A stretch of 64,000 nt of DNA. Source: Panax quinquefolius (Eukaryota; Streptophyta; Magnoliopsida; Apiales; Araliaceae). The stretch lies in contig CM035152.1 in assembly GCA_020205615.1 (NCBI GenBank), positions 116,720,043 through 116,784,042 on the forward strand. The letters run 5' to 3'. Below, piece by piece: positions 3 to 53,638 of this stretch (positions within the stretch are counted from its first letter, which is position 1; each line of letters opens with the position of its first letter). Position numbers and translations under genes: made by a program. The notes beneath the pieces are model-generated. The model searched no databases, was not told the DNA's origin, and worked only from the letters and a program-made list of their open reading frames with translations.

Positions 3-482
3 ATGGGGAATGCTGTGATTATTTTTGAGCAATTTTGTGAGTGTCATTTGAAGTTAGGGAGGAGGGTGTACATAGCTAACTTACTTTCGATGGTTATGCA
101 TGATTTCGATATCACCTTGAGTATGGATTGGCTGAGTAAGCATCGAGCCACTATTGATTGTCAGGCGAGGAAGGTTATTTTTGGAACCTTAGAGGCTCCA
201 GAATTTAAGTTTCAATGTTCAAAGCCGAATGGTGTTGTAAAGTTGATCTCAACTTTGAAGGCAAGCAAAATGATTGCTAAGGGACGTGATTATTATTTGG
301 CTTATGTGAATGATACCTCGAGGGATGAGCCACAACTTGATGATTATCCAGTTGTGCGAGAATTTCCTGAGGTATTTCCTAGAGATCTGCCAGATTGCCA
401 CCTTGAGGAAGTTGAGTTTACTTTTGAGCTCATTCCAAAGCGGAACCTATCTCTAAGGCACCCTATAGGATGGCTCCATTAG
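3..482 (+). pseudogene. Element A protease C-terminal part and linker to RT
   Basis: The protein would be the second half of the retroviral-type aspartic protease that cuts the Gag-Pol polyprotein, followed by the linker to reverse transcriptase. The segment with DFDITLSMDWLSKHRATIDC (about residues 34-53) is the conserved end of Ty3/Gypsy proteases. The stretch VVREFPEVFPRDLP (about residues 117-130) is the standard linker before RT. The catalytic Asp motif lies upstream of the window. The frame ends in a shift near 475-482, and the RT resumes in another frame. Ordinary chromovirus pol; the lineage is inferred from motif style. Confidence 0.8.
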
Positions 483-3231: not shown

Positions 3232-3261
3232 GCTCGATTCTTTTGATTCAGGGGACGGAAT

Positions 3262-3281
3262 CCTTTTTAAGGGAAAGGTGA
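3262..3281 (+). promoter_or_regulatory. Element A polypurine tract
   Basis: The purine-rich run AAGGGAAAGGTGA ends exactly before the LTR start TGTAATACCC. In Ty3/Gypsy elements this tract primes plus-strand DNA synthesis. Confidence 0.75.
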
Positions 3282-3828
3282 TGTAATACCCAAAAAAAAG
3301 AGTATTTAAGTAAGCTTTAAAATAGTTAATTGGGCTTTCCTTATGTTTGGGTCAGATTCTATTTAATTTATGTGGGCTATAACAAGTAAAGGATTGCATT
3401 AATTTTGGACCTTTAAATTAATTGGGTCTAATTTATATTTGTGTAATTTTAAATCTTAATAAAATTAAAAGAATTAATAAAATATGTTAATTAATAATTA
3501 AATAATTAAAACCTAGCTATACCTTATTAAGTCTGATGAAATAAATCGTGGGTATAGAACTGAAAAGAAAAGGAGGTGGCGGCAAGGGAGATCAGAAGGG
3601 AAGAAACTAAAGCATGTGTCCTTTCTTCTTTTTATTGGGTTATGGGTATAAATTAAAGGCAAATAATTTTTATAATATGTGATAGTACTATGAATATGAT
3701 TTGTTTATTCCCTAGAAATATATTACTTTGATTGGACATACCATTCTAATTGAATGACTGATGAGAGTCTGAGCATAGATATGTGTGAATATGTATAATA
3801 CCTGCTGCAATTCGTTGACACATACACA

Positions 3829-3864
<36 letters not shown>

Positions 3865-5349
3865 ATTTACAGAAATTTAATAGGGGAAAGTGATAAATAA
3901 TAATATAATATTGTTATTACAATTAAAATATATCTTTTGATTACAAATTGAATATAGTATATTAAAAATTATTGAATGTATGAAAATATAATTTATATGA
4001 GTTCATAATTTAATTATATGTATTATATTTTATTTTGATAATTAGATCGGATTGAGGGAGTTTAGCGGGTGATATTTGGATTCGACAAATTATTTTGATA
4101 CTACATTAAGGTACGGATTCCGTACTTTTTTAGCGATACTCCTTTAAAATTAATTCGTTCGTTTTGTTACTCATTTAGAAATTTGGTATTGCCTCATTAG
4201 GATTATTCCTTCTTGTAAAAATTATTGAGATAGTTTTGTTTTGGCGTTGATATTAGAATTCGTTTTTGTACTCTTTGAACTAGTTAATCGTGTCAATAAG
4301 TTTTGGAGACTTTATTCGTTTATATTATTCTCCGTATATTTTTCGTTCATATCCAAGAGATTGTTTTGATCATTGATATTTTGTGAAAATTAAGAATGTT
4401 CGTAATTGATAAATTTAATTTCATTTGAAGATGATCATGTAAGCCTTGTGATTTGAACCTCTTTTGGCTTATATTTTGTAGTTTGATCCATAGGGTATAC
4501 TTGAGCTAACCACCTGTGGGGGTACCACGGGCATGTCCTCTTGACACAAGGGCATGACACCTTCCGTGGCGGTGTGATCAGTCCACGACATATCCTTTTG
4601 TATGCTCTAGGTATGAGCTTTGGCCATTTGATATATTTATTCAGGATACGTATGGGTCGACCGAGTATTTGATTTGATTTAATTTATTTGGCGGATTAGT
4701 GACGTATGTGTCGTGCGTACTATCCGATTTGATTTGCATACATCATGATACCGATGTATTTGTTAGCCTTTGGCTATTTGTATTTGAGCTTAGTATGAAG
4801 TTGTCACCTTACAACCATTTGATTCAGCCTTATTTGTTTGGGATTCTTTTGGCTATAATTATTCAATTGACAATGTTAATTATTTATAAATGGACTCACA
4901 AATTTTGATCTATTCGTAATTCGTTTATATTTCACATGTGTTCATTCATTTGACTCTTTTAGATTCATTACTTATTGTGATATATTTATTCATCTTCATA
5001 TCCGTACTGGGCATTTGGCTCGCATTTGTGTTCTTTTTTTAATGAGTAATCGGGGTGATCAGGATTTGTGGGATGAGAGCTACCTTTGATCCAAATGAGT
5101 AGATTAGCTTTTGAGATTTTTATTAGACTTGGTTTTCCTAATATTCTGTATATGGATGTCTGGGCCATTTTGGCATTTATTTTTTTAATAGTAGAGACTA
5201 TGTAAATGTGGAGTTCCTTCTATCTAAGTTGGAGTATGTGACATTTGGTATTCAATTTTATTGGAGATATTTTGAGATTTATTAGAGGTTTGTATTTATT
5301 ATGTTTATGCATGACATCCCTTTTTCCTTATGGGAAAGGGGGTGTTACA
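3282..5349 (+). repeat. Element A 3' LTR, 2068 bp
   Basis: It starts TGTAATACCC and ends GGGTGTTACA, which are near-perfect inverted ends with the canonical TG/CA. It follows a polypurine tract. The interior is AT-rich with one (TA)n tract at about 3834-3863 and no convincing gene. The small ORFs at 4699-5168 and 5245-5583 start in the LTR and look like chance. The start matches the TGTAAxACCC-type ends of the nested element at 44878. Confidence 0.85.
3834..3863. repeat. (TA)n microsatellite inside LTR
   Basis: About 15 uninterrupted AT/TA dinucleotides following CACACACAGAG. It probably expands and contracts by slippage. Confidence 0.9.
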
Positions 5350-6374
5350 AATGACCTAGACATTTTATTTGTAAATGCCAAAAAGTTATCATGCATGGAG
5401 ACTACTTTCCTCTCCAGTCTCCTTAGCCTGTGGTCATCATTCTCTGAAATGGCATGGGGTGAAGCAGCTGCCTCAGTCGATTGTGGAGACAGAACCGATG
5501 ATGGAGCTGGAGAGATGAATCATTTTCCCCTTGTTTGTGGTGTGCCTCCTGCCCAATCCTCAAACTTCGCGATAGTGGCATGAGTAATGTCTTGGCTCAG
5601 ATACTGTATTTGCTCATCGTCCCAAGTAACTCCCGCTCTTGCACAGAGATGGGCTACAACTGAAGCGTGTGGGATGCTGCGTGTGGTGCTCCACCTCATA
5701 TAACGGAGCATGTTTTGGTTAAGGAGGTGACCCACATCTATGTATTTGCCCGTGATGATTCCCTAAAATATGATTGCTCGCTCAGATGGAATGTCATGTT
5801 GGTGCGAAGATGGCAGTAGCTTGGCACATATAAATAGATTCCATGCCTTTACATAGCAATTAAGCGCTGAACTTGGGAAATTTATGGGCTGACTCGTGCC
5901 TTGTTTATAGTTCCATCGAGTACCAAGCACACACAAGTCTGTAATAACTCTATCTAAACCAGTCTCAAACCTAGCAGCCTCCACCCAATTAGTGCGACCA
6001 GCCGGCGGGTCGGGCAAATTGAAGACCCCCCTAATTGTCTGTGGGCGATAGTCCACTTGCACGCCTCTGTCAAACGACAACCCACTCATTGTTTCCTTAG
6101 CATTGGCGTAGAACTCCCGTATAATAGCCATGGGAGCAGGCATCGGACTGGATACAACTCCCACCCAGCCTCTCTCTCGTATCATTTCCAAAAGTTTTCC
6201 ATCTTGTTTCCCGGGATTAAATCCTCGTTCCTTCACAAACGTTTTGGCCACAATCCTGTAGTAGTCCACCTGAGCCTCTAAGCTAACAAACTTGGTGAGG
6301 TCCAAGATGTCTTCATCTTGACTGCTTGAAGAGGAGGACTCAAGGGTGCGGGAACGTGCGCATTTAAGACCCAC
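5350..6374 (-). pseudogene. Athila extra ORF, 'putative plant transposon protein' type
   Basis: The frame runs from ATG at 6374 to the junction with element A at 5350 (about 340 codons, C-terminus lost). Two stops interrupt it, near 5763 (after RAIIF) and 5531 (after TRGK). Both are consistent with C-to-T changes (CAG to TAG, CGA to TGA). The N-terminus is Ser/Glu-rich (SSSSSSQDEDI). Motifs such as FVKERGF and WVGVVSSP, and IRGVFNLPDPP near residue 110, match the domain annotated as a putative plant transposon protein (Pfam PF20167) found downstream of pol in Athila elements. The function is unknown; it occupies the env-like position. The last part (LRRLERKVVSMHDNF) may form a coiled coil. 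Confidence 0.65.
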
Positions 6375-6639
6375 GGAGATTGATGAAGAAAAGCCCTAAC
6401 TGAAATAAGAAGAAGAGAATTTGACTAAGAAGAATAATCTCTGTATATGCGAAAAAGAAAACCCCCAAACTTGTCGCTCTCAACTACTTTGACAAACCCT
6501 AAGTATTTGAATGGGTGATATGTAGAAGAGGTTGAGTGTGGGAAAGAAAACCGAAGGAGTAGGAATCGTGGTGGGGTTAGGAGTTTTTGAATGGAAACCG
6601 TTTGGATAATGAGAAGGGGTAGAGCTTCAATTTTGAAAG

Positions 6640-7277
6640 AGAAGTGGGAAGGCACACATCTGAAAAGTTATAACTGATATGAAAAATGAAGACGTGAGTC
6701 ATGATTTAAATTACTTAAATCTACCTGGGACCGGACTCGGGTGCGGCCGCACTAAGTATGTTCTTTAGTGTGGTACGGGCGCGCTGGGCATGGCGCGGAC
6801 GCTCTGAGATTAGGCTTGATGTGGGCGCAGTGATTTGAGGGTTGAGAGCTCGAAGTCCCAAGACGGCACGCCCAACTTTCAGTACTACCTAGCTGCATGC
6901 CGCCTCGCTCCCCAAATGAGGCGATTTGCACATAAAAAAGCAACCAACAACAACTTTCTACTAGAAATCAAACCTACATACCAAGCATTCACAAAAATGA
7001 GATATACTAATTCCCAAATCAAAATTAGCACTGAATAACATGTATGAATGATTGTATATCCAAAAATGCTCTATATGTTATTCCTATTAAAAATGATATG
7101 TGCATTCAGCTCTATCAAAATTTGTGTCAAAAATTTTATAATCAGAAAAATTAAACATGGGGGGGAGAAATAGACATGATTTACAAAGAATTAAACATGA
7201 GGAGAGAAGAGAGATAATGGGGTGCCTCCCATTGAGCGCTAGTTTTTAGTCTGGTAGCTCAACTATCTCTGCTCTTA
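6640..7277 (-). other. Athila spacer between pol and extra ORF, with GC-rich motifs
   Basis: No gene is seen. Just after the pol stop the minus strand reads GCGCTCAATGGGAGGCACC, a conserved Athila post-pol signature. At about 6737-6835 there is a GC-rich patch with GGGCGCGCTGGGC and GGCGCGGACGC, unlike the AT-rich surroundings. Similar motifs recur at 16852-17000. Confidence 0.55.
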
Positions 7278-8432
7278 TTAAGTTGTAGGAAGAATTGAGG
7301 CGACATTCTGCCTGTCAACCTCACCACCATAGTAATGCTTAAGCCTCTGTCCATGAACCTTGAAGGGCTTGTCTGGAAACTTGTCAAAAATTTCTATCGC
7401 ACCATGTGGATATACAGTCTTCACAGTGAAAGGCCCTGACCACCTTGACTATAGCTTCCCTGGGAAGAGTTTAATTCTGGAATTAAATAACAACACTCTT
7501 TGCCCTGGCTCAAACACCCTTTCCATAATCTTGAGGTCATGCCATCTTTTCACCTTTTCCTTGTACAATGTTGAATTTTCATAGGCTTGCAATCTAAATT
7601 CATCCAACTCATTAAGTTGGAGTAGGCGTTTCTCTCCTGCAACCTTCAAGTCAAAATTTAGCTTCCTTATTGCCCAATAGGCCTTGTGTTCGAGCTCCAT
7701 GGGAAGGTGACAAGCCTTTCCATACATAAGCTAAAATGATGACATACCCAACGGTGTTTTATAAGCAGTCCTATAAGCCCATTCCACATCATCCAGCTTC
7801 AGCGACCAGTCCTTCCACGTGGGATTCATAATCTTTTCCAGTTTTTTCTTCACCTCATGATTTGATACTTCTTCTTGGCCATTATTCTGGGGGTAGTAAG
7901 ATGTAGTAATTTGATGATTAACCCAATATTTGGCCAACAGTGCTGTGAACTGGTAATTACAAAAATGGCTTCCTTCATCACTAATGATTGCCTTAGGAGT
8001 CCCAAACCTCGTGAAAATGCTCTTTTGAAGAAACCTTAGAACCACCTTAGCATAATTCATTGGTAGAGCTGCCACTTCCACCCACTTGGATACGTTGTCG
8101 ACTGCAAGTAAAATGTACAAGTTCCCACATAATGAAACGAAGGGCCCCATGAAGTCTATCCCCCAAGCATCAAAGATCTCCACCTCAATGATTGTATTCA
8201 AGGGCATTTCATTACGCTTAGATATGTTCCCCACCCTCTGACATCTGTCACATTTCTGAACAAAGTTGTAAGCATCTTTGAAAATAGTAGGCCAATAAAA
8301 ACCTTCTTGCAAAACTCTGGCCTCTGTCCTTTCACCTCTATAATGACCTCTATACACTGATGCGTGGCAATCCTGTAATATACCCTCTATCTCGCTATAT
8401 GGAATGCACCTTCTTATCATTTGATTAGCACA
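7278..8432 (-). pseudogene. Athila integrase
   Basis: Integrase joins element cDNA to host DNA. The zinc-binding region shows the HHCC pattern (CHASVYRGHY then CDRCQR). The catalytic core keeps all three acids: GIDFMGPF, ISDEGSHF and NGQEEVSN. The C-terminal part shows MYGKACHLPMELEHKAYWA and RWHDLKIMERVFEPGQ, both typical of Athila. Only one in-frame stop, just after GKL near 7449, breaks the C-terminal region, which otherwise continues to the TAA at 7278-7280. This is the best-preserved enzyme of the element. It has no chromodomain, as expected for Athila. Confidence 0.85.
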
Positions 8433-8639
8433 CTACTTGAACAAGTACGGCTCATCCCAAATAAACCATTTTACATCGTGTAGAAACTTCTTCTTTATAT
8501 GCCTAGTCAAGTCAGAAGGGATTATCTTGCTTACTAGGAAGTTTGCATAATCTACAAACCATGGCACTTCGCCTTTCCCGACAAACAATTGCTCATCTGG
8601 GAAGGACTCATTAATCATAACTTTGTCATTTACATCCCT

Positions 8640-10407
8640 TCCTGGATTTTCCAATCATGATAAGTGGTCAGCCACTCGATTCTCAGTCCCTTTTCTGTCC
8701 TTGATTTCTAAGTCAAATTCATGCAAAAGAAGTATCCACCTGGTCAGACAAGGTTTAGCATCTTTCTTTGCTACGAAGTATCGGATCGTTGCATAGCTTG
8801 TATACATAATCACTCTAGTCCCAATCAAAAAAGCTTAAAACTTATCGAATGCATACACCACTGCTAGAAGCTTTTTTTCTGTGGTAGAGTAGCTCAATTG
8901 GGCATCAGTAAGGGTCTTGCTGTCATAGTAGATGAAATGGAAAACCTTTTCCCTACGCTGGCCCAAAACATCTCCCACAGCAAAGTCACTTGGATCACAA
9001 ATCAACTCAAAAGGTAGGTCCCAATCTGGTGCTGTAATCACAGGTGTCGTAGTCAACTTCTTCTTTAAATGTTCAAATGCAGTCAGGCATTCTTCATCAA
9101 ATTTAAACTAGACATCCTTTTCTAATAAACTGCAAAGTGGCTTTGTTATCTTCGAGAAGTCTTTTATAAACCTACGGTAGAAGCCTGCATGTCCCAAAAA
9201 ACTACGAAATCCTTTAACAGAAGTAGGTGGAGGTAAATTCTCAATAGTCTCTAATTTAGCTCGATCCACCTCTAATCCTTTCTTTGAAACCTTATGTCCC
9301 AGTATTATACCTTCTTGTACCATAAAATGGCACTTCTCCCAATTTAGAACAAAATTTGTCTCAACACATCTTTTTAACACCATCACCAAAATTTCCAAAC
9401 ACAGGTCAAATGAATCTCCAAAAATAGAGAAGTCATCCATGAAGACTTCAACATTGTACTCAACCATATCCAAAAAAAATAGCCATCATACACCTCTGAA
9501 ATGTGGTCGGGGCATTGCACAACCCAAAAGACATCATTCTAAACGCAAATGTTCCATAAAGACAAGTAAAGGTAGTTTTTTCCTGGTCTTCTGGAGCTAT
9601 CACAATCTGATTGTATCCTAAGTACCCATCCAGAAGGTAATAATATTCATGGCTTGCTAGCCTATCCAACATCTGATCAATGAATGAGAGGGGAAAATGG
9701 TCTTTCCTTATAGCCTTATTCAGCCTGTGGTAGTCCATGCAGACTCTCCACCCCTTCACTGTCCTGGTAGGTATTAGCTCGTTGTTCTTATTTGATACCA
9801 CTGTCATACCCCTTTTCTTCGGCACACACTGCATTGGGCTCACCCTAGAGCTGTCTGAGATCGGATATATAATCCCTGCATCTAACCACTTTAGAACCTC
9901 TTTCTTAACCACTTCCATCATAATCGGATTCAGTCTTCGTTGTTGCTCCACTAAAGGTTTACTATCATCTTCCAGCAGGATCTTGTGTATATAGAATGAG
10001 GGGCTTATCCCCTTTATGTCTGCTATGGTCCATCCAATGGCTGATTTGAACTCTCTTAGTACTCGTAACAATTTATCTTCCTGGAAAGATGTAAGTGAAG
10101 CAGAAATAATAACAGGTAACTTTGAAAATTCACTCAAAAATGCATACATTAAGTGATCTGGAAGAGGTTTAAGTTCAAGATCTAGAGGCATCTCAAGTGA
10201 TGGCTTGAGTTATGCTGATGTCTCCCCAGAAAGCTTGAGTGGCTCGACAGGAATCTTAAATCTTTGAAACTGTGGCATTGTGTCAAGAATGTGCACAAAT
10301 TCTACAATCTCCGTATCTTCCATCTCTGAATCCCCCAATATAGCAATTTTCAAAGGCTCATTATCAACCAGATTTCTAACTTCTTCATTCAACATTCTTT
10401 CTACCAT
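8640..10407 (-). pseudogene. Athila reverse transcriptase and RNase H
   Basis: RT motifs run from VLKWLDAGIIYPISDSSRVS through WRVCMDYHRLNKA and MMSFGLCNAPTTFQRCMMAI to the catalytic FMDD box (9432-9443 on the minus strand). They end in the connection motif FRSFLGHAGFYRRFIKDFS. A single frame change near 9465-9473 lies just before FMDD. RNase H follows (CDPSDFAVG, TTEKKLLAVVYA). Its third acid appears lost: the usual YTDH reads YTSY near 8800. Single stops occur at about 10208, 9108 and 8835. The adjacent protease is in the same frame. Confidence 0.87.
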
Positions 10408-10422
10408 ATCAATCCAAAAGAA

Positions 10423-10968
10423 TTATTCCTCGTCGGTAGGAAACTTCATAGCCTTAAACACATTGAATGTAACTTCTTGATCATGAACTCTCATTGTCAA
10501 CTCTCCTTTCTGGACATCTATCAGAGTTTGTCCCGTGGCTAAGGAAGGTCTCCCAAGGATGATTGGTATATTTCTATCTTCTTCATAGTCTAAGATGATG
10601 AAGTCAGCTAGGAAGATAAATTTATCTACCTTGACCAATACATCTTCCACAATACCCCTCGGATAAGTGATGGATATGTCAGCAAGCTGTAGTGATATAT
10701 TCATTGGCTTTGGAGCCAGCAATTCCAATTGATTGAAGACTGACAGAGGCATAAAATTAATGCTCGCCCCTAAGTCACACAAGCATTTGTTGAAAAACAT
10801 CTTTCCAATAGAACAGGGTATTGTGAAACTGCCCGGATCCTTAAGTTTTGGAGGTAACTTATGTTGTAGCACTATACTACACTCTTCTGTCAAGGCTACT
10901 GTTTCAAAATCTTCTAATCGTTTCTTCCTTGATAGAATTCCCTTCATAAACTTTGCGTAGCTCGGCAT
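10423..10968 (-). pseudogene. Athila aspartic protease
   Basis: A 181-codon open stretch with the catalytic box CDLGASINFMPLSVF (the DLGAS form seen in Athila). It ends in IPIILGRPSLATGQTLIDV, the conserved flap-to-end region. It matures the Gag-Pol polyprotein. It is uninterrupted here and in frame with RT, but the link to gag is broken by frame changes between 10968 and 11480. The N-terminal SYAKFMKGILSRKKRLEDFE is the usual Athila lead-in to the protease. Confidence 0.85.
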
Positions 10969-11282
10969 TTGCTCTAATACCTCTGCGAAGGGTATATTGA
11001 TCTACAGTTTCTTGAATACCTCCAAAAACTTTGCAAATTTTTTACCTTCCTTTTGCTTTTGTAATCTTTGTGGATATGGAACAGGATGGTAAACAGATGA
11101 TGGTTTGGTTATGGGTTTCTCAGGTAACTCTTCATGAACCTTCTCCACTACCCTCTATTCAGAACCTTCTTTTAACAAGCTATCATCAGAGCCAGTTTCC
11201 TCCTGGCGCGGCTACGCGACATTCCCTTCTAAATTGGACGCGAGTGCGGCGTCCTGTAAATCTGTAGTCTGTTTCCCTGATT

Positions 11283-12599
11283 TTAGTGTAATGGTTTACA
11301 TTGTTCCTTTCTTTCCCTTCTTAGATTGGTTTCAGTAGTACTTGTCAATGTCCCTTGTGGTATGCTATTCAACATATTGGCCATTCGGCCAATCTGAGTC
11401 TCCAAGTTCTTGATAGCCACAGCCTGGCTCTTTATCATAATTTCTGTATTAGCCATGTAATTCAGCATCATCTCCTCCATTTCTGACTTCTTTTCTAGTT
11501 GTGGAGCAGGTGGTGGATGGTGTTGCTGTTGTTGTTAAAATCCAGGAGGGTAAGGTGGTTTGGGTGCATACTGTTGGTGAGATGGTTATGGTTGGTATTG
11601 ATGTTGGGACTGAAATTGATGTGGTTGTTGGTGTTGTTGCATGTTCTGATTGTTGTTCCAACTAGAATTGGGATGGTTGCAGTTGTTGGAATTGTAAGAA
11701 TTCTGAAACTAATTCTAGTTCTTTTGGTAGTTGCTCACAAATTGCATTGATTCTAAACTGATAGGACACTGGTCTATTTGATGTGACCCCGCACATATCT
11801 CACATACATAAGCAACTAGCTTGACTTTACTCTCCGCCAATGAATCAATCTTCTTTGTCATGGCTGCCATTTGTGCTGACAATGCTGTAATGGCATCCAC
11901 TTCTATTATCCCCACAACTTTAGGTTATGGCATCCTGGCCGTAGGATTCTGGAAATTGTTCGCTGACATAGTCTCAATAAGATCATACGCTTCTTCATAA
12001 CTTTTATCCCACAAGGCTCCTCCTGCAGCAGCATCTACTATTGGCCTAGACTGCCAAACCAATCCATTATAAAAAGTATTTATAACGATCCAATCAGGCA
12101 TTCTATGATGAGGGCATTTTCTTAGCATTTCTTTGTAGTGTTCCCAGGCTTTATACAGTGATTCACCCTGTTGTTGTCCAAACTGGGAAATCGCAATCCT
12201 CATTTTTGTTGTCTTAGCCATAGGGAAAATTTTTGCTAAGAACATCTGTGCTAAGTCTTCCCATGTGGTGATTGACCCCGATGGTAACGAATGGAGCCAA
12301 CTTCTTGCCTTATCCCTCAAAGAAAATGGGAACAGTCTAAGCCTAATTGCATCTTCTAACATCCCATTGTACTTAAAAGTGTCACATATCTCGATGAAGC
12401 TCAACAAATACTCATTTGGGTCATCTGTAGGAGCACCTCAAAATTGAACTAAATTTTGGACCATCTGTATCGTGCCTGGCTTAATTTCAAATGTATTTGT
12501 TGCTTTAGCTGGCCTTACAATACTCGACTATAACACATTAATTTTAGGCATGGAATAATCCCTTAAGGCTCTATGTTCTTCTCTAGGCTCTTCTGCCAT
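11283..12599 (-). pseudogene. Athila gag with zinc knuckle
   Basis: The start is taken as the ATG at 12599 (MAEEPREEHRALRDY), giving the usual Athila N-terminus. The capsid-like retrotransposon gag domain follows (LRLFPFSLRDKARSWLHSLP near 12310, then WEDLAQMFLAKIFP). A CCHC zinc knuckle CEICAGSHQIDQC lies near 11800-11765. The tail is Gln/Asn/Pro-rich (11510-11715) and ends in IKNLETQIGRMANMLNS, a conserved coiled segment of this family. There are stops near 12525 and 12440 and frame changes in the Gln-rich tail. Gag forms the virus-like particle. About 1.3 kb is normal for the family. Confidence 0.85.
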
Positions 12600-23850: not shown

Positions 23851-24122
23851 TAAAGGAAATGCATCACAAGAATGATGACGAGGATTTTCAGACTCCAGAG
23901 CAGCGACGTCGACCCCGCCGGATGATTTTCCTCCTACTGGTGGTATTACTAGATTAGGTTGATATTTTGTATAACAGTAATTTAGATGTTTTCTAAAACA
24001 TTTTTAAATTATTGCAATTTAGCTTGTTTCTTTGTAAATCAATGTATTTTACTTTAGTTTTGTAAATAATTGAAGTTACTTTTATTCTTTGTAGTTTTAA
24101 AGTTATATCATTGTAGTTTAAC

Positions 24123-24158
24123 AACTAATACAAAATCATAAATAGAAAACACTTAAAA
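24123..24158 (+). repeat. Left terminal inverted repeat of inner CACTA
   Basis: AACTAATACAAAATCATAAA and onward pairs with the reverse complement of 29672-29707 with about eight mismatches. The canonical CACTA start is mutated to AACTA. Confidence 0.7.
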
Positions 24159-24229
24159 GATGACGTTTTTATAAAAAAAACATTGTGGTATTTTTTTACA
24201 ACATTTTTTAACAAAACGTTGTAGATACA
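24158..24229. repeat. Left subterminal repeats of inner CACTA
   Basis: Words GACGTTTTT, ACATTGTGG, ACAACATTTT and AAAACGTTGTAG match those near the right end. Such clusters bind the element's transposase or TNPA-like protein in known CACTA systems. Confidence 0.65.
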
Positions 24230-24231
24230 TA

Positions 24232-24486
24232 CTCCCTCCGTCCCAAATTAATTGCTCAGTTTTAACTTTTTAAAATCAAATTGACCATTTTTAAAACTAA
24301 TCTTTTTACTATTTTTGCTAAAATATAGGTGAAGAGATCATAACCAAAAGAAAGTATATACAATTTATTACTAACCCCAATTTTTATAATTTTAGAAATA
24401 TATTTATATATGCTTAATTATTAATTCTAAAAATAGTCAATTTGACTTAAAAAAGTCAAAACTGAGCAATTAATTTGTTTTTGTCC
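24232..24486. mobile_element. Stowaway-like MITE, about 255 bp
   Basis: It starts CTCCCTCCGTCCCAAATTAA directly after a TA. The segment AAATTAATTGCTCAGTTTT near the left end is the reverse complement of a segment near the right end (AACTGAGCAATTAATTTG), with continued pairing inward. The outermost right end is replaced by TTTTTGTCCC. It is a Tc1/mariner-derived miniature element inserted in, or carried by, the inner CACTA. Confidence 0.7.
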
Positions 24487-25189
24487 CTTCTTCTTTGATT
24501 TCAGTTATGAATTGTGGTCCAATTCATTTTCAGATGTGTATTGGTTTTAAAATTATTTTATGTACTAAAATTTTAATGGATAAATGACTAATTTTTGTTG
24601 TTCTTATCAATTAATTAATACTCCTACTTTGAGTTCATGTATTTTTTATTTGATTGGATTTTGAAAATAAGTAAAAGAAAGTTTTTTTTTAGACAAAGCT
24701 ATCTTTTGATTTCCAGATTGTTTGAGCTTTTGAAGGTTATTTATATTCTTGTCATATTTACGAGTATACTTGACTGTTATAGGTTAATGCTCTTATAGGT
24801 TTCAGAATCTGCTACAATTGATTTCATGACTGAATATGTTGTTTGTGAATTTGCATTGGGTTTAAATTTTTCAATCCATATTATATTAAATCTCTCATGT
24901 TATGTACTATCTATCTGTAAATCTATCATACTACAACCTCATTCTTTTTTTGTTTAAAGTAATATGTAATATACTCTGTAGTTGACAACATGAGTGTTAG
25001 TTCTTGTAGTCTTGCGAGAGACTAGCAATAAAATTATGTCATGATTTACATTTCCGTATTACCAATCAGATATATGCTTCCTTGTACATTTTGTTCATTT
25101 TTGCTGGAGGAATGTCAGTTCTTTTGGATCGGAACTAAAATTTTGCATTTGCTTAATATCTTTAATTTAATATTATAATTGTGCAACAG

Positions 25190-25496
25190 GTAGATGCTCA
25201 TATTCAACAACTTGATCAACATATGAAAAAATTTAACCAAGAGCTTCAACGTGGTATGTTTCTTTTAGCTTCAAAACTTTTGTCATTCTACATAGAACAT
25301 GTTGATGGGTACACTTGGCTAGACTTGTTGTATTTCTGTTTCAGAAAGTTGCCTTTTCTCTTCTAAGGATTCGTCTAATTTTAAATCTGATTTGGGCAGA
25401 AAGGGATAACAGTGCTGCAACTGGATCGCCTACTTCAACTCTTGATGGTAGTGTGAAACCTGGAAGGAGTGAAAGTGGTAGAGGAGGTTGTAAGAA
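25190..25496 (+). pseudogene. ING: Captured fragment of a plant ING-type (inhibitor of growth) gene, two exons
   Basis: Exon 25190-25253 follows a CAACAG acceptor and ends before GTATGT. Exon 25400-25496 follows GGGCAG and ends before GTAACT. In phase they give VDAHIQQLDQHMKKFNQEL, then RERDNSAATGSPTSTLDG and a Gly/Arg/Lys-rich end. This is the coiled N-terminal histone-tail-binding region and linker of plant ING1/ING2-like proteins. Those proteins read H3K4me3 through a C-terminal PHD finger and join histone acetyltransferase or deacetylase complexes. The PHD finger and the start of the gene are absent, so this is a captured internal piece. The expected GRGGRKK reads GRGGCKK. Confidence 0.75.
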
Positions 25497-25770
25497 GTAA
25501 CTACCTATCCTTGTTCTGGACTTCTTCAATTTTCACTTCTAGATATATTTATATTTCGAATCTATAAGTTGAGGCTTGTGATCCTAGTGATTTATTTATT
25601 TATTAATTGTTGTAGTTATTTTTTTCCCTTTAAGTAAGTTGCTTTATATTTTAAACTTATAAGGGAAAACGTCTGAACTGATGGGAGGTGGTTGCCTTTC
25701 ATAAAAGAGAAAAGGAGTAACAAAGGGCATGACTACTCGGGATTTTTAGAAGTCACTTTTTAATCTATAT

Positions 25771-25976
25771 AATACTCCTCAAACACCACCAAGATCTCCT
25801 AGCCCTGATTTATATAAAGAAGAGTCTCCAGGTAGATAATCTAATGGTCTTATATATTTTGTATAGGTTATTCCTTTTATTTCCTTGTAGTATTTGGTAA
25901 GACAAACTAACATTACAAATTCTGATTTAATTTTACAGAAGTTGTGTTCACTATCCAGCGCAATCATCTCAAGTTG
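25771..25976 (+). pseudogene. Captured exon pair from an unrecognised gene
   Basis: Exon about 25771-25831 reads TPQTPPRSPSPDLYKEESP and ends before GTAGAT. Exon 25939-25976 follows TTACAG, reads EVVFTIQRNHLKL and ends before GTAAGC. The phase is continuous across the 107-bp intron. I do not recognise the parent; the Pro/Ser-rich stretch suggests a disordered part of a nuclear or signalling protein. A further 31-bp candidate exon lies at 26190-26220 (CCAG before, GTAATG after). These pieces lie between the ING and coatomer fragments and may be from a fourth source gene. Confidence 0.45.
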
Positions 25977-26349
25977 GTAAGCCAATTATCTTGTAAAAAA
26001 TAGTTGAAGAAAGACTTTTTCAACTGTTTACCCATGGATTATCTTACTTGCTCAGTTTCATAACCAACTGCCTTTTGTAGTTCATTGCTAGCTGAAGTAT
26101 CTGCATCCATGTATACACCATCACACAAGCCTACCTTGTCCTTCTAGGCCACAAAACTCACTAACATGCAGCTAATATTTTGCTGCCAGAGAACACATCT
26201 GCAGAAGTTTACAAGAGAAGGTAATGAGCTTGTTATCAAAAACCAATTATAGGTTCATTTTGTTCTCCTTTCACTTGGCATTTGAAATAGGCAAGTAGAA
26301 TGTCAATAGATACTACATTTTATTAATTTCTTGAAAGATACTACATTTT

Positions 26350-26638
26350 CTTGGAATTGAGGGACCAAAAACCTCTGATCCAAGCAAATACATAAGGTAT
26401 ATCTATAACCGAGTGATACTTGGGAATGCAACTGTTCGAGCCAGTGCCGTAAGAACATTGGCTAAGTTTGGTGCCATGGTTGATTCACTGAAGGTAAATT
26501 TGTTTCTTTTTTTTTCTCTCTTTATAACATCAATTTAGGTTTGGTTATAAGCTACTAACAGAGATGATGTGTTATATTGTGTTGCAGCCTCGCATTTTTA
26601 TTTTGTTGAGACGCTGTCTCTATGACAGTGATGATGAG
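26350..26638 (+). pseudogene. COPG: Captured fragment of coatomer gamma subunit gene (COPG), two exons
   Basis: Exon about 26350-26493 reads [20 protein letters not shown] and continues through [15 protein letters not shown] to SLK before GTAAAT. Exon 26588-26638 follows TTGCAG and reads PRIFILLRRCLYDSDDE before GTCAGT. This is the adaptin-like HEAT-repeat trunk of the gamma subunit of COPI, the coat that drives Golgi-to-ER vesicle transport. The parent protein is near 880 residues and only about 65 are kept. No stop interrupts the two exons. The fragment sits in the same orientation as its neighbours within the CACTA element. Confidence 0.85.
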
Positions 26639-27174
26639 GTCAGTTGTATTTTTATTTAAAGTCTATAGTTTATGATTCTTATACACTGTAGTGATATTTT
26701 ATACTTGTTTAGAAGTTGGAGCATAAATTAGGTCTTCTAGTTTGTTTTCCTTGTTCATTGTGGTTTATTATTTTCACATTCACAAGCTTATCATTTGAAG
26801 GTGGAATTCTCAATTGAAGGCTATGCTAAATTGGTATTATTGTCTTAAATTTTTCTTGTTCGAATTAGCTACGTCATAAACTTTTCTTCCGTTCTACTTT
26901 AAAGGCATTTTATCCACAGGGTTGTTGATTGGTTTTCTATTTAAACCTTTGAAGGGATTAAATTTTGAGTTTTGCCATAACCTGTGCCTTACATTTTATG
27001 ACACCGACACTTTTGGACCAAAGTTAGAGCCTGCTTTTGCAATGAGGAATTCATATTCTAAAATGTACTTGTTTGTGACTGTAGGATCATCTTCTGTAAT
27101 TTTTTTCTGTCTTGACTTAAATTGTACTTCTCCCATAATTGTTTCATCTTAGTTTATAATCACATGGATTATAG

Positions 27175-27817
27175 GTTACCCTTCTTTGTCGGGGTCCTGG
27201 AGATTCATCTCAAAATGAATCAGCAGCTACAGTTGGCATAATTAAGGTTCTAACTTTGAGTTAGTTATTCTAATCCAATTCTTCTGTCTTGCATATTTTT
27301 CTAACAAATTGATGGCATGCAGTCATTAATTGGACACTTTGATCTGGATCCGAATCGTGTTTTTGACATTGTAAGTTACCCCTTCATTATAGTCATCTAA
27401 TATAACTAGGACTTGTCAGAACAAAAAAATTGGTTTATAGTTCACTCATAGTAAACATTTTTTTAGGGGTGTGTTGAAATAAAATTTGTCTTGGTAGTGT
27501 TTCTGACTTGTGTTTGAGCCTGTAGGTTCTGGAGTGTTTTGAACTTCAGCCTGATAATGTTGTCTTCTTGGATCTGATTCCTATATTTCCCAAGGTTTGG
27601 ATATACACACAAGCACATATTGTATTGTTCATGCTTAATGGACGCATTTCTTTTACTAATTCTTGGCCTTTTTTTTGCAGTCCCGTGCTTCTCAAATACT
27701 TGGGTTTAAGTTTCAATATTATCAGCGTATGGAAGTTAATAGTACTATACCGTTTGGACTCTACCAGCTTACTGCTCTACTGGTTAAAAGGGACTTCATT
27801 GATCTTGATAGCATTAT
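27175..27817 (+). pseudogene. THO2: Captured fragment of THO complex subunit 2 gene (THO2), four exons
   Basis: Exons 27175-27246, 27323-27370, 27526-27594 and 27681-27817 each have AG/GT borders and join in phase without a stop. They read VTLLCRGPGDSSQNESAATV, then SLIGHFDLDPNRVFDI, then VLECFELQPDNVVFLDLIPI and then SRASQILGFKFQYYQRMEVN onward to FIDLDSI. This matches the N-terminal third of plant THO2, the scaffold of the THO/TREX complex that couples transcription to mRNA export and small-RNA production. About 108 of some 1800 residues are kept. The exon-intron layout is retained, so capture was at DNA level rather than from cDNA. Confidence 0.88.
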
Positions 27818-29160
27818 GTGAGTATTTTGTGTATTCTAGACTTGCAATGTGCCTAAAGTGTCAATTTGGTTCATGTCTGGGAATGTAAATTAAAAAAATT
27901 ACCTACTAACACCTCACATAGTCTTGGATTTCTGGTAGACTCTTGAATTTCATATTTTAAAACGTTTCAGAAATTACATTTGTACCATTTTTGATGATTT
28001 GTCATTGCGGTCTTAAACTATATACAATGAAGCACGTTTCTTGTCTTTCGGTCTCAGTCAGTAGATCTAATATCACTGCCATATTCTTAAACTATATACA
28101 ATGATTTTGTTATTTTTTAACTCCACCTTGGATCTGTGACTTATGTGAGACAAAAACATTATTCTGTGTATGGTTGCAGATGGTTGCTACTGTCATGAAT
28201 TAGATAGGTTGCTCTGCTTGCTGATGGTTGAACTTGCTTCTATCCTGTATTTCTAATGGATCTGTTCAGTTGCAATTGTGATGTTTATTTTTGATCAGAT
28301 AAGTGGTTTTCTATTCTGCCTTGTAGCTTTTTCACGTGGTTTCTCCTTTTATTTTAGTCATCCTCTACATGGTGGGCTATCCTAGCTGACTTCTGCCATA
28401 GAACATTGCTGGAATTGTGAAACAATACTAATATTTCTTTGGGCTTGTGGTGCTGCAGTAGCTAATGATCCATGGTCTGTTTTACTGTCATAATCTTGCT
28501 GTGTTGCTTTCTTCTTTACCTGCAAGGTATTACTGCTATTGCTTTTGCTATCCTATATGCAACTGTACACATGCTATTCTGAGGCTCAGCTACCATAAAT
28601 GTTGTTTTGATGACTTGCTTTAATTTTCAGATTGGAATATTTCAAAATTTGGTGATGGGATTATCAGTTTCCTTTTAGCTGTTTAAGCTTTGTGTGCCTA
28701 GCTGTATATGATGGTGATTGTAAGAAGCTTGGCATACTAGCAGTCCACAGTTACCAGTTTTAGCTCAGCAATAACTGACAGTATATGATGGTGTACCCTT
28801 AGAAAGTGCCTTGAGTTAACGGTGGATATGTACAGGGTTAGATGAATGTACGTATTTTGGAAGAACCTAGGCTTTTTTGCACATGCTTAGGTAGTAGCTT
28901 AATTTTATAGATAGTTTGGTTTATTTTGTGGATGCATGTAATCAAATTCACAATTCAATATAGTAGTAATTTATATTGAAAAGTAAATTTGAGATGCATA
29001 TATGGATAGTTTGGTATATATTTTATGGATGTAGTAATTTGAAACGGTAAACGAATGGTATTATTGGGATGTATTTTGAATGGTTGATACATTTTGGCTT
29101 TAAATTTAAATGAGAATTTAGACCTTTTAGCTATATATCATGGCATTAGCAGATTGCAAG
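27818..29160 (+). other. Non-coding interior of inner CACTA
   Basis: No exon is recognised. The left part may be the following THO2 intron (the donor is GTGAGT at 27818). The part from about 28800 onward, with ATGTACGTATTTTGGAAGAACC and TGGATGCATGTAATCAAATTC, looks like the 3' untranslated end of a CACTA transposase gene, which would be the element's own sequence. Confidence 0.4.
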
Positions 29161-29194
29161 TGCACTGGTAATATAGGTGAATCACAACTTTTTT

Positions 29195-29694
29195 TTTTCA
29201 AGTCAATCTACAACATTTTAAAAATGTTGTATATTTGTATAAATAAATGACACCTTCTAAACGTTGTATAAATTTTTTTTAAACTTTGTCTGTTGCTTTC
29301 TATGGTCGATATTTAAAAACAGTTGTTATATGCATGTATTACAACATTTTTAAGTCACACTACAACGTTTTAAAAACGTTATATAAATTTGTCTAAATAG
29401 ATGACACATTCTAAACGTTGTGCAAATGTGCGCCTAAACGTTGTCTGATATATTAAACTGTAACATTTTAAGCCAGAAAACGTTGTGGAATCATACCTTC
29501 TACAACGTTTTCAAGAATCTACTAATTTATGGAAAACAAATCTACAACGTTTTTTTTCTTAAAAAACGTTGTATAATGTGTCTAACTACAAAGTTTTAAA
29601 AACATTGTATAAGGGTATCAAATAGATGACACCCTTAACCACGACGTTTTTCTGATAGAAACCACAACGTTTTTTACGCGTTATCTATTTACTG
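29195..29694. repeat. Right subterminal repeats of inner CACTA
   Basis: About a dozen words of the type ACAACGTTTT or AAACGTTGTA in both orientations, with variants ACAACATTTT and ATGTTGTA. They are spaced roughly 30-60 bp apart and several form small palindromes. This density next to a TIR is typical of CACTA elements. Confidence 0.75.
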
Positions 29695-29707
29695 TTTTGT
29701 AGTAGTG
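29672..29707 (-). repeat. Right terminal inverted repeat of inner CACTA
   Basis: It ends in TTTTGTAGTAGTG and is followed by AAC. It pairs with 24123-24158. Confidence 0.75.
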
Positions 29708-31410
29708 AACGTAAACGTGTATATATATTGTTCTTCAAAGTAGTCACGTTGTGTTGATTAACATATAAGTTTTTGGATGTAGTGAATGATTAATTACTGT
29801 ATGTATTGTTGGGATAAAGCATGTTACAGGTACAAAAATGGGGTTTAAAATCCTGAAAACTGTAAAAATAAAAATAATATTTTAAATATATATATTTCCG
29901 ATGGAATAAGGTAATTCCGACGGAACTTCCGTCGTTGATAAGAAAATAAATGTATTTAAAAAATCCTCTATTTCCAACGAAATAGTCCTTACTATTCAAA
30001 GGAATCTTAAATCATGTGACAGAATTACATTTTACCAAATCATTCATGTAGCCTACACGTGTCCCCTTATTTTCGAAGGTCTAAATCCGTCGGCAATAAT
30101 CCGTCAAAATTAACCAATCTACCCTCGACAGAATTGTCGACGGACTAATCTCCGACGAGGTTAAATTCGACAAAATTTTCAGTCAAAATTCTCCCTTTTT
30201 CTTGTAGTGATATATATTTATTTAAGAATAAAATTGTTGTAGAATAATAAGTTACCATTATGAACAAACATTGCTAAATAAAATTTACATTTTCGAGCAA
30301 AGTTTGTAATATATTAATTCCTTTAAAAGGTTTGATTAATGCGCTGAAGGAATTTTATAAAGAATAAAAATTTTCATAAAATACTATAACATTAATTATA
30401 GTAGACAATTGTATGGTTTGTATTTATTTATTATTTTTAAGAAAATGTTGTAATCATTCCAATACCAATAGTAAGTTAATTTACGAAATTCAATTTTTTT
30501 TTTATAAACTACATATATAAAACAAATAAAATATTAAAAATAATGCTATTTATAAAATAAACCTATGTTTTACCTTCCATAGAAAAACTAAAATACTACA
30601 CTAAAAAAATTATGTCTCTTTATAAGTTAATAAGTTAATTATTACGATTATATATTTTAGTATAGCTATATTAGAATAATTTTGTTGTTCTCCATCTTAA
30701 TATTTTAGTTTGTAGATAAATATGATATAATAGTAGAATAATTTGTTACTATATCATATATCATTGCTAAATATATTAACAATGATCCATATATAATTTA
30801 ATTTAGGCTCGTGAGAATTAATATTATTAAATGACTTATATAAGAAATATATTTTAGTTCATGGATAATTATGATATAAAAGTAGAATAATTTGTTACTA
30901 TAAGAATTAAAATAATAATTTACTCTAAAAATGTTAAAATCATAAATAGTATTTTGGTTCTACATAAATTCTAGGTTTAAAAAGTATTTTAATAGTAGTT
31001 AATAAAATAAAATCAAGAGATTTTAAAAAGTATTTTAGTATGAATTAAATTCTAGTCCTATACCGAAGAACAAGAACCAAAAAACTTAGTTTTACCTTAT
31101 TATATATGTACTAGCTAAGCAGCTAAGCACCCAGTGCAAAGTACAGGTAGGCTTTTTAAATAAAATATTTAACTTTTTTTTGACATATAATTATTTTAAA
31201 TTTCTTGAGTATTATATATATGTTTTATTTTAATTTTATAAATTAATCAACAGGATAATTATAAACTTGGCTCAAAAATTGAATAAATATATCAGTTATA
31301 ATTGTCGTTGACTCACAATTAAGTGTCAACAGTAATGTGGATTTAGTTATTTTAGTTTTTTTATTATTATTATTATTATTTATATTATTATTTGGTATTA
31401 TTATAGTTTG

Positions 31411-47487: not shown

Positions 47488-49532
47488 GGGAGAGCGTTTG
47501 TCGTGACCTCCCAGAAAGCAAGGAACCCGAACGAGGTCAACACGGGTAAGCTTATCATAAACTTTAGCGAAGTATATACCTTATTTGATACCGGTTTTAC
47601 CCATTCTTTTATTTCTCCTACTTGTGCTCAACGTTTAAATTTGACTCCGGAGAAATTAGACTTTAACTTATCTGTTGAAACTCCATTGGGAGAAACCTTC
47701 ATTACATCCACTGATTATAAGTCTTGTTTGGTTCAAATCGGTACCCTCACATTACCTGTCAATCTTATTTCATTGAAAATACTTGCATTTGATGTAATTC
47801 TAGGGATTGATTGGTTAAGTACTCATCATACAAAAATTGATTGTTTTCGTAAGGTTGTTAGCTTTCATATTCCTAACCAACCTATTATGCGAATTCAAAC
47901 AACCAAACCATTAAAATCAATCACTGTCATCTTAAGCCATAAAGCTATTTGTTTATTGAAAAATGGATGTCAAGCTTTCTTAGCTCATGTCACGGATCTA
48001 AACAAAAATACGTTAGTTTTGAATGATATTTCTATTTTTAATGAATTTCCTGACGTATTCCCTGAAGAACTTCTTGACCTACCCCCAGAGCGTGAAATTG
48101 AATTTTGTATCGACCTTGAACCTGGTACAAAACCTATTTCTAAAGCCCCATATCGAATGGCTCCTATTGAACTTCAGGAGTTAAAGACCCAACTGCAGAA
48201 ATTGTTAGACATTGGCTTTATTCGTCCTAGTACTTCTCCTTGGGGTGCTCCTGTTCTATTCGTGAAAAAGAAAGATGGGAGTATGTGACTTTGTATTGAT
48301 TATCGGGAGTTGAATCATGTCACCATCAAAAATAGGTACCCATTGCCACGTATTGATGACCTGTTTGACCAGTTGCAAGGAGCCAAATTCTTTTCAAAGA
48401 TTGATCTTCGTTCTGGATATCACCAATTGAAGATTAGAATTGATGACATTCTAAAGACGGCTTTTAGAACTCGTTACGGGCATTATGAATTCCTAGTCAT
48501 GTCTTTTGGATTGACTAATGCTCCTGCTGCCTTCATGAATATGATGAACTGAGTATTCAAGGAATATTTGGATCACTTTCTGGTCGTCTTTATTGATGAC
48601 ATCCTTATTTATTCCAAAAGTCGTGAAGATCATGAGCAACACTTGAGGCTGATACTCCAAAAACTTCGTGAATATAAGCTTTATGCCAAGTTAAAGAAAT
48701 ATGAGTTCTGGCTTGAGGAAGTAGCATTCCTTGGGCATGTGGTATCAAGTCATGTAATATCTGTTAACCCAACAAAGATTGAAGCTATTCAAAGCTGGGA
48801 GCAACCTAAATCAGTGACCGAAGTACGTAGCTTTCTCGGCTTAGCTGGTTATTATCGGAGATTCGTAGAAGGGTTTTCTCGAATCGCTAATCCATTAACT
48901 CAGCTGACTCGGAAAGATACAAAATTCGGTTGGAGTGAGGAATACGAGAAGAGTTTTCAAAAACTCAAGAGGAGACTCATTTAAAGACTGCTACGACAAT
49001 ACCATCTGGCTCAGAGGGATTTGTCATCTACAGTGATGCTTCGGGCAAAGGGTTAGGATGTGTTCTCATTCAACATGGGAAAGTCATAGCCTATGCCTCT
49101 CGACAACTCAAAGAATATGAGAGGAATTATCCTACTCATGATCTAGAGTTGGCAGCAGTCATTTTTGAACTGAAGATTTGGAGGCATTACTTGTATGGGG
49201 AGAAAGTGGAGATCTTTACAGATCATAAAAGCCTCAAATATTTCTTCACTCAAAAGGAACTCAACATGCGACAGCAATGTTGGCTTGAACTTTTGAAAGA
49301 TTATGATCATACCATCCAATACCATTTTGGAAAAGCGAATGTGGTAGCTGACACATTGGGTAGAAGATTATATGCGGGTACGAGTGCGATATTATCAACA
49401 CAAAGGCCCATTTTGTGTGACTTGCAAAGGATGAAGATAGAGTTAAAGACTCCAGGGACCCACATGATGATGGCAAATATACGAGTAGAACCTACTTTAA
49501 TCGATAAAGTTAAAAGTCGCTCAAGTTTATAG
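47488..49532 (+). pseudogene. Element D protease, reverse transcriptase and RNase H
   Basis: The protease has LFDTGFTHSFIS (about 47582-47617) and VILGIDWLSTHHTKIDC. The linker FNEFPDVFPEELLDLPP leads to RT with [37 protein letters not shown], the catalytic FIDD (48589-48600) and [21 protein letters not shown] frame change near 48984 precedes RNase H ([40 protein letters not shown]). Two in-frame TGA stops, at about 48286 and 48550, stand where Arg is usual and fit CGA to TGA. The last RNase H motif reads VVADTLGR where the family has VVADALSR. Confidence 0.9.
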
Positions 49533-50964
49533 ACACGGAGCTGATGCGTATAAGGAAGAAAGTACAAGAAGGTGCTATGCCGGAAGCAAGAATCGATGAA
49601 GAAGGAATACTTTGAGTCAACTCCAAACTTTGTGTTCCTAACGACCCTGAGTTAAAGTATAAAACCATGATGGAGGCGCACAACACACCGTTTGCAATCC
49701 ATCCTGGGAGTTCCAAAATGTATCATGATCTTCGACATACATTTTGGTGGGAAATATGAAGAGGAGATAATATTTGTTTATCTCAAGGTGTTTAACTTGT
49801 CAACGAGTCAAGGCGGAGCATCAAGTACCAAAAGGTACATTGCAACCACTTGAAATTCCAGAATGGAAGTGGGAGCACATTACCATGGATTTCGTTACTG
49901 GTCTTCCCAAGGTTTCTCAAGGCATAGATGCAATTTGGGTCATTGTTGATAGATTGACCAAGTCTGCTCATTTCTTACCAATACTAGAAACTTATACACT
50001 TGAACGTCTTGCTCGTATATACATAAACGAGATTATAAGACTGCATGGTATGCCGGTATCCATAGTTTTTGATCGAGACCCAAGATTCACTTCACGATTT
50101 TAGGTTAGTTTACAAAAAGCTATGGGCACAGATTTACGATTTAGTTCGGCATATCATCCTCAGACGGACGGGCAATCAGAGAGGACTATTCAAACTCTTG
50201 AAGATTTATTAAGACTTTGTGTCCTTGACTTCAAGGGAAGTTGGGACAAGTTCTTACTATTGGTGGAGTTTTCCTACAACAACAGTTATCAAGCATGTAT
50301 TGGCATGGCTCCATTCGAGGCGTTGTATGGAAGAAAGTGTCATTCTCCAGTATGCTGGGATGAGGTGGATGAAACAACATTGTTGGGACCGGAGTTGGTA
50401 CGTATGACTACGGAAAAGATTCAAACAATTCGACAAAGTATAAAAACCTCACAAGATCGACAAAAGAGTTATGCTGATATTCATCGAAAGGACGTAGAAT
50501 TTGATATTGGAGATTATATATTGTTACGTGTTGCTACATGGAAAGAAGTTATGAGATTTGGAAAGAGAGGAAAGCTCAATCCTCAATTCATTGGTCCATT
50601 TTTAATCCTCGATCGAGTAGGGACTGTAGCCTATAGACTCATTTTACCACCAAGTAAGTCTCGTGTTCATAACATTTTTCACGTATCCATGTTACGTAAA
50701 TATGTGAAAGACCCGAACCATATTATTGAGTTAGAACCGGACAAAATAGCGGAAGATTTAACGTATGAAGAGGTTCCTGTTCAAATCTTGGATAAGAAGG
50801 AACATATTCTACGCTCCAAGGTTATACCTCAAGTCAAAGTTTTATGGAGGAACCACGATGTTGAGGAAATGACCTAGGAGTTAGAATCTGAAATGAAATC
50901 AAGGTATCCTTACCTCTTCGATATACCAGGTATGTACCCTAATTTTGAGGGCAAAATTTCTTAA
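49533..50964 (+). pseudogene. Element D integrase with chromodomain-like tail
   Basis: The HHCC region is split: HNTPFAIHPGSSKMYHDL is near 49680-49735 in one frame and CLTCQRVKAEH near 49789 in another. The catalytic core keeps all three acids: MDFVTGLP, FDRDPRFTS and GQSERTIQ. The C-terminal module GKLNPQFIGPF and the chromodomain-like tail (ILRSKVIPQVKVLWRNH) run to the TAA at 50962-50964. A TAG near 50101 interrupts the core. Another near 50875, in ACC TAG GAG, stands where Trp is usual. The polypurine tract starts right at the stop. Confidence 0.9.
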
Positions 50965-50975
50965 GGAGGGGAGGT
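50963..50975 (+). promoter_or_regulatory. Element D polypurine tract
   Basis: AAGGAGGGGAGGT directly precedes the 3' LTR start and overlaps the integrase stop codon. Confidence 0.8.
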
Positions 50976-53633: not shown

Positions 53634-53638
53634 CTGAC

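Follow-up and report, generated by a model that had tools for sequence, protein, structure and literature searches.

A non-autonomous CACTA element, probably a Pack-CACTA, with pieces of ING, coatomer gamma and THO2 genes in Panax quinquefolius

Ends and flanks of the element

The window analysed here is a 64,000-nt stretch of Panax quinquefolius DNA located on contig C2 of a 3.57-Gb assembly (821 contigs), and the same assembly was the genome searched for related loci. At positions 24123–29707, limits that the original prediction gave exactly, the window contains a complete non-autonomous CACTA element of 5.6 kb. It is a mosaic of blocks that follow, from left to right, in the order: a miniature inverted-repeat transposable element (MITE), block A, a piece of an ING gene, block U, a piece of a coatomer gamma gene (COPG), block X, a piece of a THO2 gene, a 12-nt filler, block V, and the right end. 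The ends and the target-site duplication (TSD) are as follows.

24120–24122, unstranded: left TSD, AAC, read directly and identical to 29708–29710
24123–24230, plus strand: left CACTA end, a degenerate terminus with a short subterminal region; 19 of 24 nt equal to the right end
28805–29707, plus strand: right CACTA end with subterminal repeats, supported by family matches to the right end
29708–29710, unstranded: right TSD, AAC, read directly

The AAC on either flank had been noticed in the original prediction, and this duplication implies that the element was inserted as one unit. The right end, read inward, is CACTACTACAAAA, and the left end is a degenerate form, AACTAATACAAAA. When the terminal 24 nt of the left end are compared with the reverse complement of the right end, 19 of 24 positions agree, a level reached by one of 200000 random pairs taken from the window. 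The left-end stretch recurs at the left side of L022, L024, L025, L028, L030, and L031 with 80–91% identity. The subterminal motif ACAACGTTTT (at most one mismatch) has 25 sites in the 64 kb, 17 of them in 29180–29707, three in 24123–24230, five elsewhere in the window, and none in the element interior (24231–29179); no CACTA terminus with up to two mismatches is found in the interior either. Hence, of the inverted ends and paired subterminal clusters claimed originally, the ends stand with the reservation that the left one is short and degenerate, and the motif forms a true cluster on the right, the left one being short and weak. A six-frame Pfam scan of 24480–29180 yielded no transposase, as had been stated originally, and only the gene-piece domains THOC2_N and Adaptin_N, both on the plus strand.

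Gene pieces and their parent genes

Three stretches of the interior correspond to host genes, and their limits and exons are listed below.

24935–25765, plus strand: ING gene piece, two complete exons and three intron parts; 97.5% identity to L039, 95.7% to L040
25190–25253, plus strand: ING exon 1 in the piece, AG/GT intact, frame open
25400–25489, plus strand: ING exon 2 in the piece, AG/GT intact, frame open
26312–26685, plus strand: COPG piece with two complete exons, flanked by intron parts; 97.6% identity to L021
26338–26493, plus strand: COPG exon 1 in the piece, AG/GT intact, open
26588–26638, plus strand: COPG exon 2 in the piece, AG/GT intact, open
26815–28092, plus strand: THO2 gene piece, four complete exons with introns, preceded by the final 19 nt of another exon; 96.6% identity to L023
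26815–26833, plus strand: truncated THO2 exon, 3' end only; in L023 the native open frame crosses the left limit
27175–27246, plus strand: THO2 exon, AG/GT intact, open
27323–27370, plus strand: THO2 exon, AG/GT intact, open
27526–27594, plus strand: THO2 exon, AG/GT intact, open
27681–27817, plus strand: THO2 exon, AG/GT intact, open

The assignment of these exons to ING, coatomer gamma, and THO2, made originally from the letters alone, agrees with Pfam and PDB matches, for ING via the exons of L040. The COPG piece matches Pfam Adaptin_N (6.2e-10) and coatomer gamma-1 in PDB (2.2e-22), and its parent L021 (C15) is a COPG gene with neighbouring coatomer gamma exons on either side, the joined exons matching Adaptin_N at 2.2e-30. 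A second COPG locus, L034, was ruled out as the donor, its identity being 85% vs. 97.6% for L021. The THO2 piece aligns with L023 (C23) at 96.6% over 1281 columns and matches THOC2_N (3.5e-17) and THO complex subunit 2 in PDB (6.4e-15); later exons of L023 match THO complex subunit 2 (1.9e-20) in a part of the protein beyond the captured one, and a 91-aa stretch of L023 past the captured piece matches no Pfam family. The ING piece aligns, introns included, to two similar loci, which are both parent candidates, L039 (C1:21.15M, 97.5%) and L040 (C9:102.13M, 95.7%), and the joined native exons of L040 match Pfam ING at 1.5e-17. The 54-aa ING fragment alone retrieved no ING entry in homologue and profile searches, and neither the 44-aa nor the 54-aa fragment found a homologue.

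All eight complete exons of the element have kept both AG and GT and are free of stops. Both limits of the ING and COPG pieces are in introns, while the THO2 piece starts within an exon, leaving 19 nt of it, and ends in an intron. Identity to the parents continues through introns and breaks off sharply at the block limits, and L021, L023, L039, and L040 have no match to the element outside the gene piece. As the best donors are located on contigs other than C2, namely C1 or C9 (ING), C15 (COPG), and C23 (THO2), the pieces were captured in trans, in line with the suggested origin from unlinked loci. The alignment of intact genes to the fragments, proposed earlier as a check, thus extends through introns for all three genes.

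Relatives with the same ends

The last 228 bp of the element served as a query, and the best 40 of 2599 first-look candidates were scored, the element itself included. The 39 other scored loci match at 93–96% identity, and in 38 of them the match limit is the base equivalent to 29707. In a second right-end search, the best 40 of 2090 first-look candidates were scored. Of 14 fetched loci whose termini were examined, four are relatives in which both ends are present and the two 3-bp flanks are identical, with CACTA-type ends within two mismatches on either side, so the search for further copies suggested in the original prediction was successful.

L022: 5569 bp, TAG flanks, both ends
L028: 4787 bp, AGT flanks, both ends
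L030: 4533 bp, ATT flanks, both ends
L031: 5332 bp, AGA flanks, both ends

In the other ten loci no paired ends with identical flanks were found within the fetched stretch; one of these, L034, is a COPG paralogue and not an element. Relatives with differing gene contents have common family ends. Positions 1265–6833 of L022 are a complete Pack-CACTA with TAG flanks that contains a piece of a calpain gene as well as a COPG piece of greater length (approximately 1.6 kb or more, several exons). In L024, region 2200–7100 combines COPG with pieces of five or more genes (DEAD_2 helicase, ABC transporter, RCC1, zf-DNL, and TRM13), and L025, L026, and a part of L035 are similar to it.

Taken by its features, the element has CACTA-type terminal inverted repeats (TIRs; degenerate on the left), a 3-bp TSD, and subterminal repeats (weak on the left), as in the CACTA superfamily, and, as in Pack-CACTA elements, it has no transposase of its own and contains host gene pieces with parents elsewhere. 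Based on its ends, the 3-bp duplication, the large same-ended family, and the parents elsewhere with matching introns, 24123–29707 is very probably a Pack-CACTA, that is, a non-autonomous CACTA (En/Spm) transposon with captured host gene pieces. The interpretation offered originally is thereby upheld with several refinements: the left end is degenerate, the mosaic includes a MITE and further untraced blocks, and joints are shared with other elements.

Joints of the mosaic and the mode of capture

The joints involve the following blocks besides the gene pieces.

24229–24477, plus strand: truncated MITE of a multicopy family, terminus CTCCCTCCGTCCC; 39 other loci at 96–98%
24476–24934, unstranded: block A, common to several family members (L038, L028/L042, L041, L043; parts in L044 and L048), parent not traced
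25762–26311, unstranded: block U, sequence with possible exons; 97% to L050, 96% to L051
26686–26816, unstranded: block X, joined to COPG and not native to it; native COPG (L021) diverges at 26685
28093–28104, unstranded: 12-nt filler TATATACAATGA, equal to 28019–28030, both following TCTTAAAC
28102–28778, unstranded: block V, parent not traced; compared with L049, it is without approximately 250 bp found there

In the MITE search the best 40 of 3032 candidates were scored; the right terminus of the MITE, kept in all seven fetched copies, is cut off at 24477 in the element. Block U matches C8:23.853M (L050, 97%) and C9:40.838M (L051, 96%), which both adjoin the family's right end, that is, they are other elements and were rejected as native U genes. 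Pfam and PDB give block U no identity, its parent gene was not found, and it is traced to other such elements only. The unknown exon pair reported originally falls within this block, i.e., in DNA common to other elements, and its exons are only possible ones. The COPG–X joint is not native either, as L021 diverges there and the alignment of L021 with L034 continues past it. As for block V, its stretches 28102–28210 and 28207–28746 flank the approximately 250 bp of L049 missing from it, and the two alignments overlap by four bases.

Several joints are found in other elements. In the search that covered the COPG–X joint, the best 40 of 59 candidates were scored, and 17 of the 39 loci other than the element run across this joint. 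The U–COPG joint is spanned at two loci, A–ING at one, and the joint of V with the right end at two or more. No scored match spans ING–U, and no match among the best-scored ones spans X–THO2 (beyond the two shared bases) or THO2–V. Relatives sharing a joint contain a shorter stretch of the same chimera, their surroundings being otherwise different. Because elements that otherwise differ have chimeric joints in common, captured pieces seem to pass between family members, or to be recaptured, and direct capture from a gene would not be required for every piece. The idea that the element was the donor for its relatives is weakened by its private changes, absent from the relatives, which make it a cousin rather than a direct donor.

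The THO2–V joint consists of ...TTCTTAAAC, followed by TATATACAATGA and block V: the 12 nt in between are a copy of 28019–28030, TCTTAAAC precedes both copies, and block V opens with the shared TGA. The ING–U joint has a 4-nt word, AATC, common to both sources, and the X–THO2 joint a 2-nt word, TG. These marks would fit template switching during break repair, to which the locally copied filler at THO2–V is a pointer. In this scenario the interior would have been built largely from host gene pieces and other captured DNA: breaks inside the element would be repaired with the polymerase switching its template to unlinked DNA, all pieces would have been captured over a similar period (2.4–3.3% divergence), and some would afterwards have been handed between family members, the element as a whole being mobilised by the transposase of another element.

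Several observations weigh against this picture. The U–COPG joint has no clear microhomology to the sources and instead contains a 14-nt direct repeat; the repair mechanism is based on few joints, and tandem insertion is possible for others; a second copy of the whole chimera is absent among the best-scored matches to element parts; and, as the left terminus no longer begins with CACTA, the copy at 24123–29707 may have lost its mobility.

The strongest alternative is tandem insertion with joint mobilisation, where the outer ends of two nearby family members carry off the intervening DNA, the process being repeated for each gene. It is proposed for Arabidopsis Pack-CACTA and for rice and maize Pack-TYPE elements in passages of two papers (PMC8903248, PMC13317346), and the intron–exon stretches in native order would suit it as they suit any DNA-level capture. 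Here, however, pieces from different contigs are joined directly, with neither the subterminal motif nor a CACTA terminus in the interior, and the 12-nt locally copied filler at THO2–V is not predicted by excision alone, so we regard this route as unlikely for the element.

Far less plausible is a short CACTA element that received a Helitron with gene pieces. One-strand capture is known for maize Helitrons, and the identified gene pieces of the element likewise share one orientation. Still, the element contains no CTRRT preceded by a perfect hairpin of at least 7 bp (perfect stems of 7–9 bp were scanned; the lone pattern hit, at the first bases of the element, is a script artefact), and the family ends are the same in relatives whose gene contents differ. 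That a local gene cluster, intact or decayed, should lie between ends resembling CACTA by chance has found no support and can practically be discarded, as the pieces stop sharply relative to parent loci on other contigs, and of the 39 other loci matched by the right terminus, 38 stop at the same base.

Divergence and coding state of the captured exons

Compared with the closest relatives of the pieces captured by this Pack-CACTA, we observe 21 substitutions in 831 positions for ING (L039), 9 in 374 for COPG (L021), and 36 in 1274 for THO2 (L023); block U has 18 in 550 relative to L050, which is an element and not a parent gene. The four values are homogeneous (P = 0.83, range 2.4–3.3%), hence the pieces are of similar age. 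Substitutions are somewhat less frequent in exons than in introns (12/684 vs. 54/1795, P = 0.09), and nine of the twelve exon changes, one of them in an intron-split codon, are non-synonymous, which is about the neutral expectation. Judging by these changes, the captured exons appear to bear no sign of selection, with nothing pointing to a useful protein. The six complete COPG and THO2 exons would, as computed from the sequence, join into a single open frame of 177 codons.

Strand of the captured genes

Six-frame Pfam scans (E up to 0.01) were run on seven elements, namely the window element, L022, L028, L030, L031, L029, and L024. All 14 distinct captured-looking families are on the left-to-right (sense) strand and none on the other one: Adaptin_N, THOC2_N, Peptidase_C2, BRO1, SNRNP27, DHHC, Hist_deacetyl, PRORP, Cation_ATPase_N, DEAD_2, ABC_tran, TRM13, RCC1, and zf-DNL. 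WD40_RLD, which overlaps RCC1, was left out of this count; COPG was counted once, since the relatives had all been found via the common COPG piece. The two-sided chance of such a bias is 0.00012 if the pieces are independent and 0.016 if each element is given a single vote. Restricted to the five elements whose two ends are both verified, the count is six sense families of six (chance 0.03). PRORP, as well as THOC2_N and Adaptin_N in the scan of the window element, are below the curated cut-offs, the scans of L024 and L029 may extend past the element, and the left-end match of L029 is on the wrong side of its right end.

Five more loci came from the top-ranking matches to the right end. In L054 the sense strand contains a piece of a DEAD-box helicase gene, and L052 and L056 have open frames on the same strand; the piece in L056 is presumably fucosyltransferase-like, and a PDB search with it gave no useful match. 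L053 contains a gypsy piece, taken as a nested retrotransposon, and L055, no recognisable gene piece. The T-over-A skew, used as a strand proxy, is positive in all ten interiors linked to COPG or U. Of five others, three are clearly positive, L052 is close to zero, and L053, with its gypsy piece, is negative. As 13 background windows range from –0.124 to 0.095, the skew may lend weak support to the strand bias.

We consider it an even question whether captures in this family are strand-polarised, that is, sense-only when read from left to right, which could result from transcription-coupled capture or from rapid loss of antisense pieces, with the pieces circulating as second-hand modules. Our estimate was lowered slightly because only six of the 14 families are in elements with both ends verified. 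If the polarity is true, all captured exons would be read in sense by one transcript that starts at the left end. Silencing of essential parent genes is one way in which antisense captures could be lost. In the open-licence literature searched, we found no paper testing strand bias in CACTA elements; PMC2686159, which speaks of transcriptional orientation, deals with another matter.

Other features of the window

Just to the right of the element, at 29827–30209, there is a second, short CACTA-like piece with the right end CACTACAAGAAAAAGGG read inward from 30209, repeats of the TTCCGACGGAA type, and a left end that is degenerate and lies near 29827; its flanks, TTA and ATA, do not match exactly. 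Remains of gypsy-type retrotransposons (protease, RT, RNase H, integrase, gag) cover much of the window, at 3–3053, 5763–12407, and 47503–56500. The plant snoRNA snoR71 (Rfam RF00097, 53.4 bits) is at 12100–12206 on the plus strand and overlaps a gag-like open frame on the minus strand.

Discussion

Gene shuffling by Pack-CACTA elements is of a known kind, with examples in soybean (Tgm-Express1), Arabidopsis, rice, and maize. Tgm-Express1 from the soybean wp allele is described in passages of PMC1947982 as a 5.7-kb CACTA element that contains parts of introns and exons from five host genes unrelated to each other, so that the size and the multi-gene intron–exon content of the two elements are similar. 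Tgm-Express1 sits in a gene, according to the same passages, and its exons are spliced into transcripts; here no surrounding host gene was identified in the window, gypsy remains are found further off, and the set of genes is different.

Pack-CACTA and Pack-TYPE elements of Arabidopsis, rice, and maize, as characterised in parts of PMC8903248, have CACTA TIRs, TSDs, and host coding DNA, often from more than one locus, all of which agrees with the structure of the window element. What differs here is that joints recur across elements and that the captured genes are on a single strand in the seven scanned elements. In the Pack-TYPE study the element orientation was set arbitrarily, and therefore strand bias is not addressed in its passages on orientation (PMC8903248).

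In Chenopodium, CACTA elements contain captured gene fragments upstream of the element coding domains, as reported in a passage of PMC8978399, whereas the window element has pieces of several genes and no transposase. For animal Pack-TIRs, passages of PMC8277862 report capture with microhomology via template switching (gap filling, FoSTeST) and 59.8% of donors on the same chromosome; the window element is similar in the microhomology at joints and differs in that its matched parents are on other contigs.

Beyond the original prediction, we observe chimeric joints that recur, a locally copied filler at one joint, and 14 captured families that are all sense. The analysis contributes a well-documented Pack-CACTA with pieces of several genes, found in a large plant genome; its parent genes are at hand, and joints recur between elements. 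If the one-strand rule proves true genome-wide, it would give a handle on how such elements pick and keep gene pieces, and on a possible role of transcription or silencing in sorting them.

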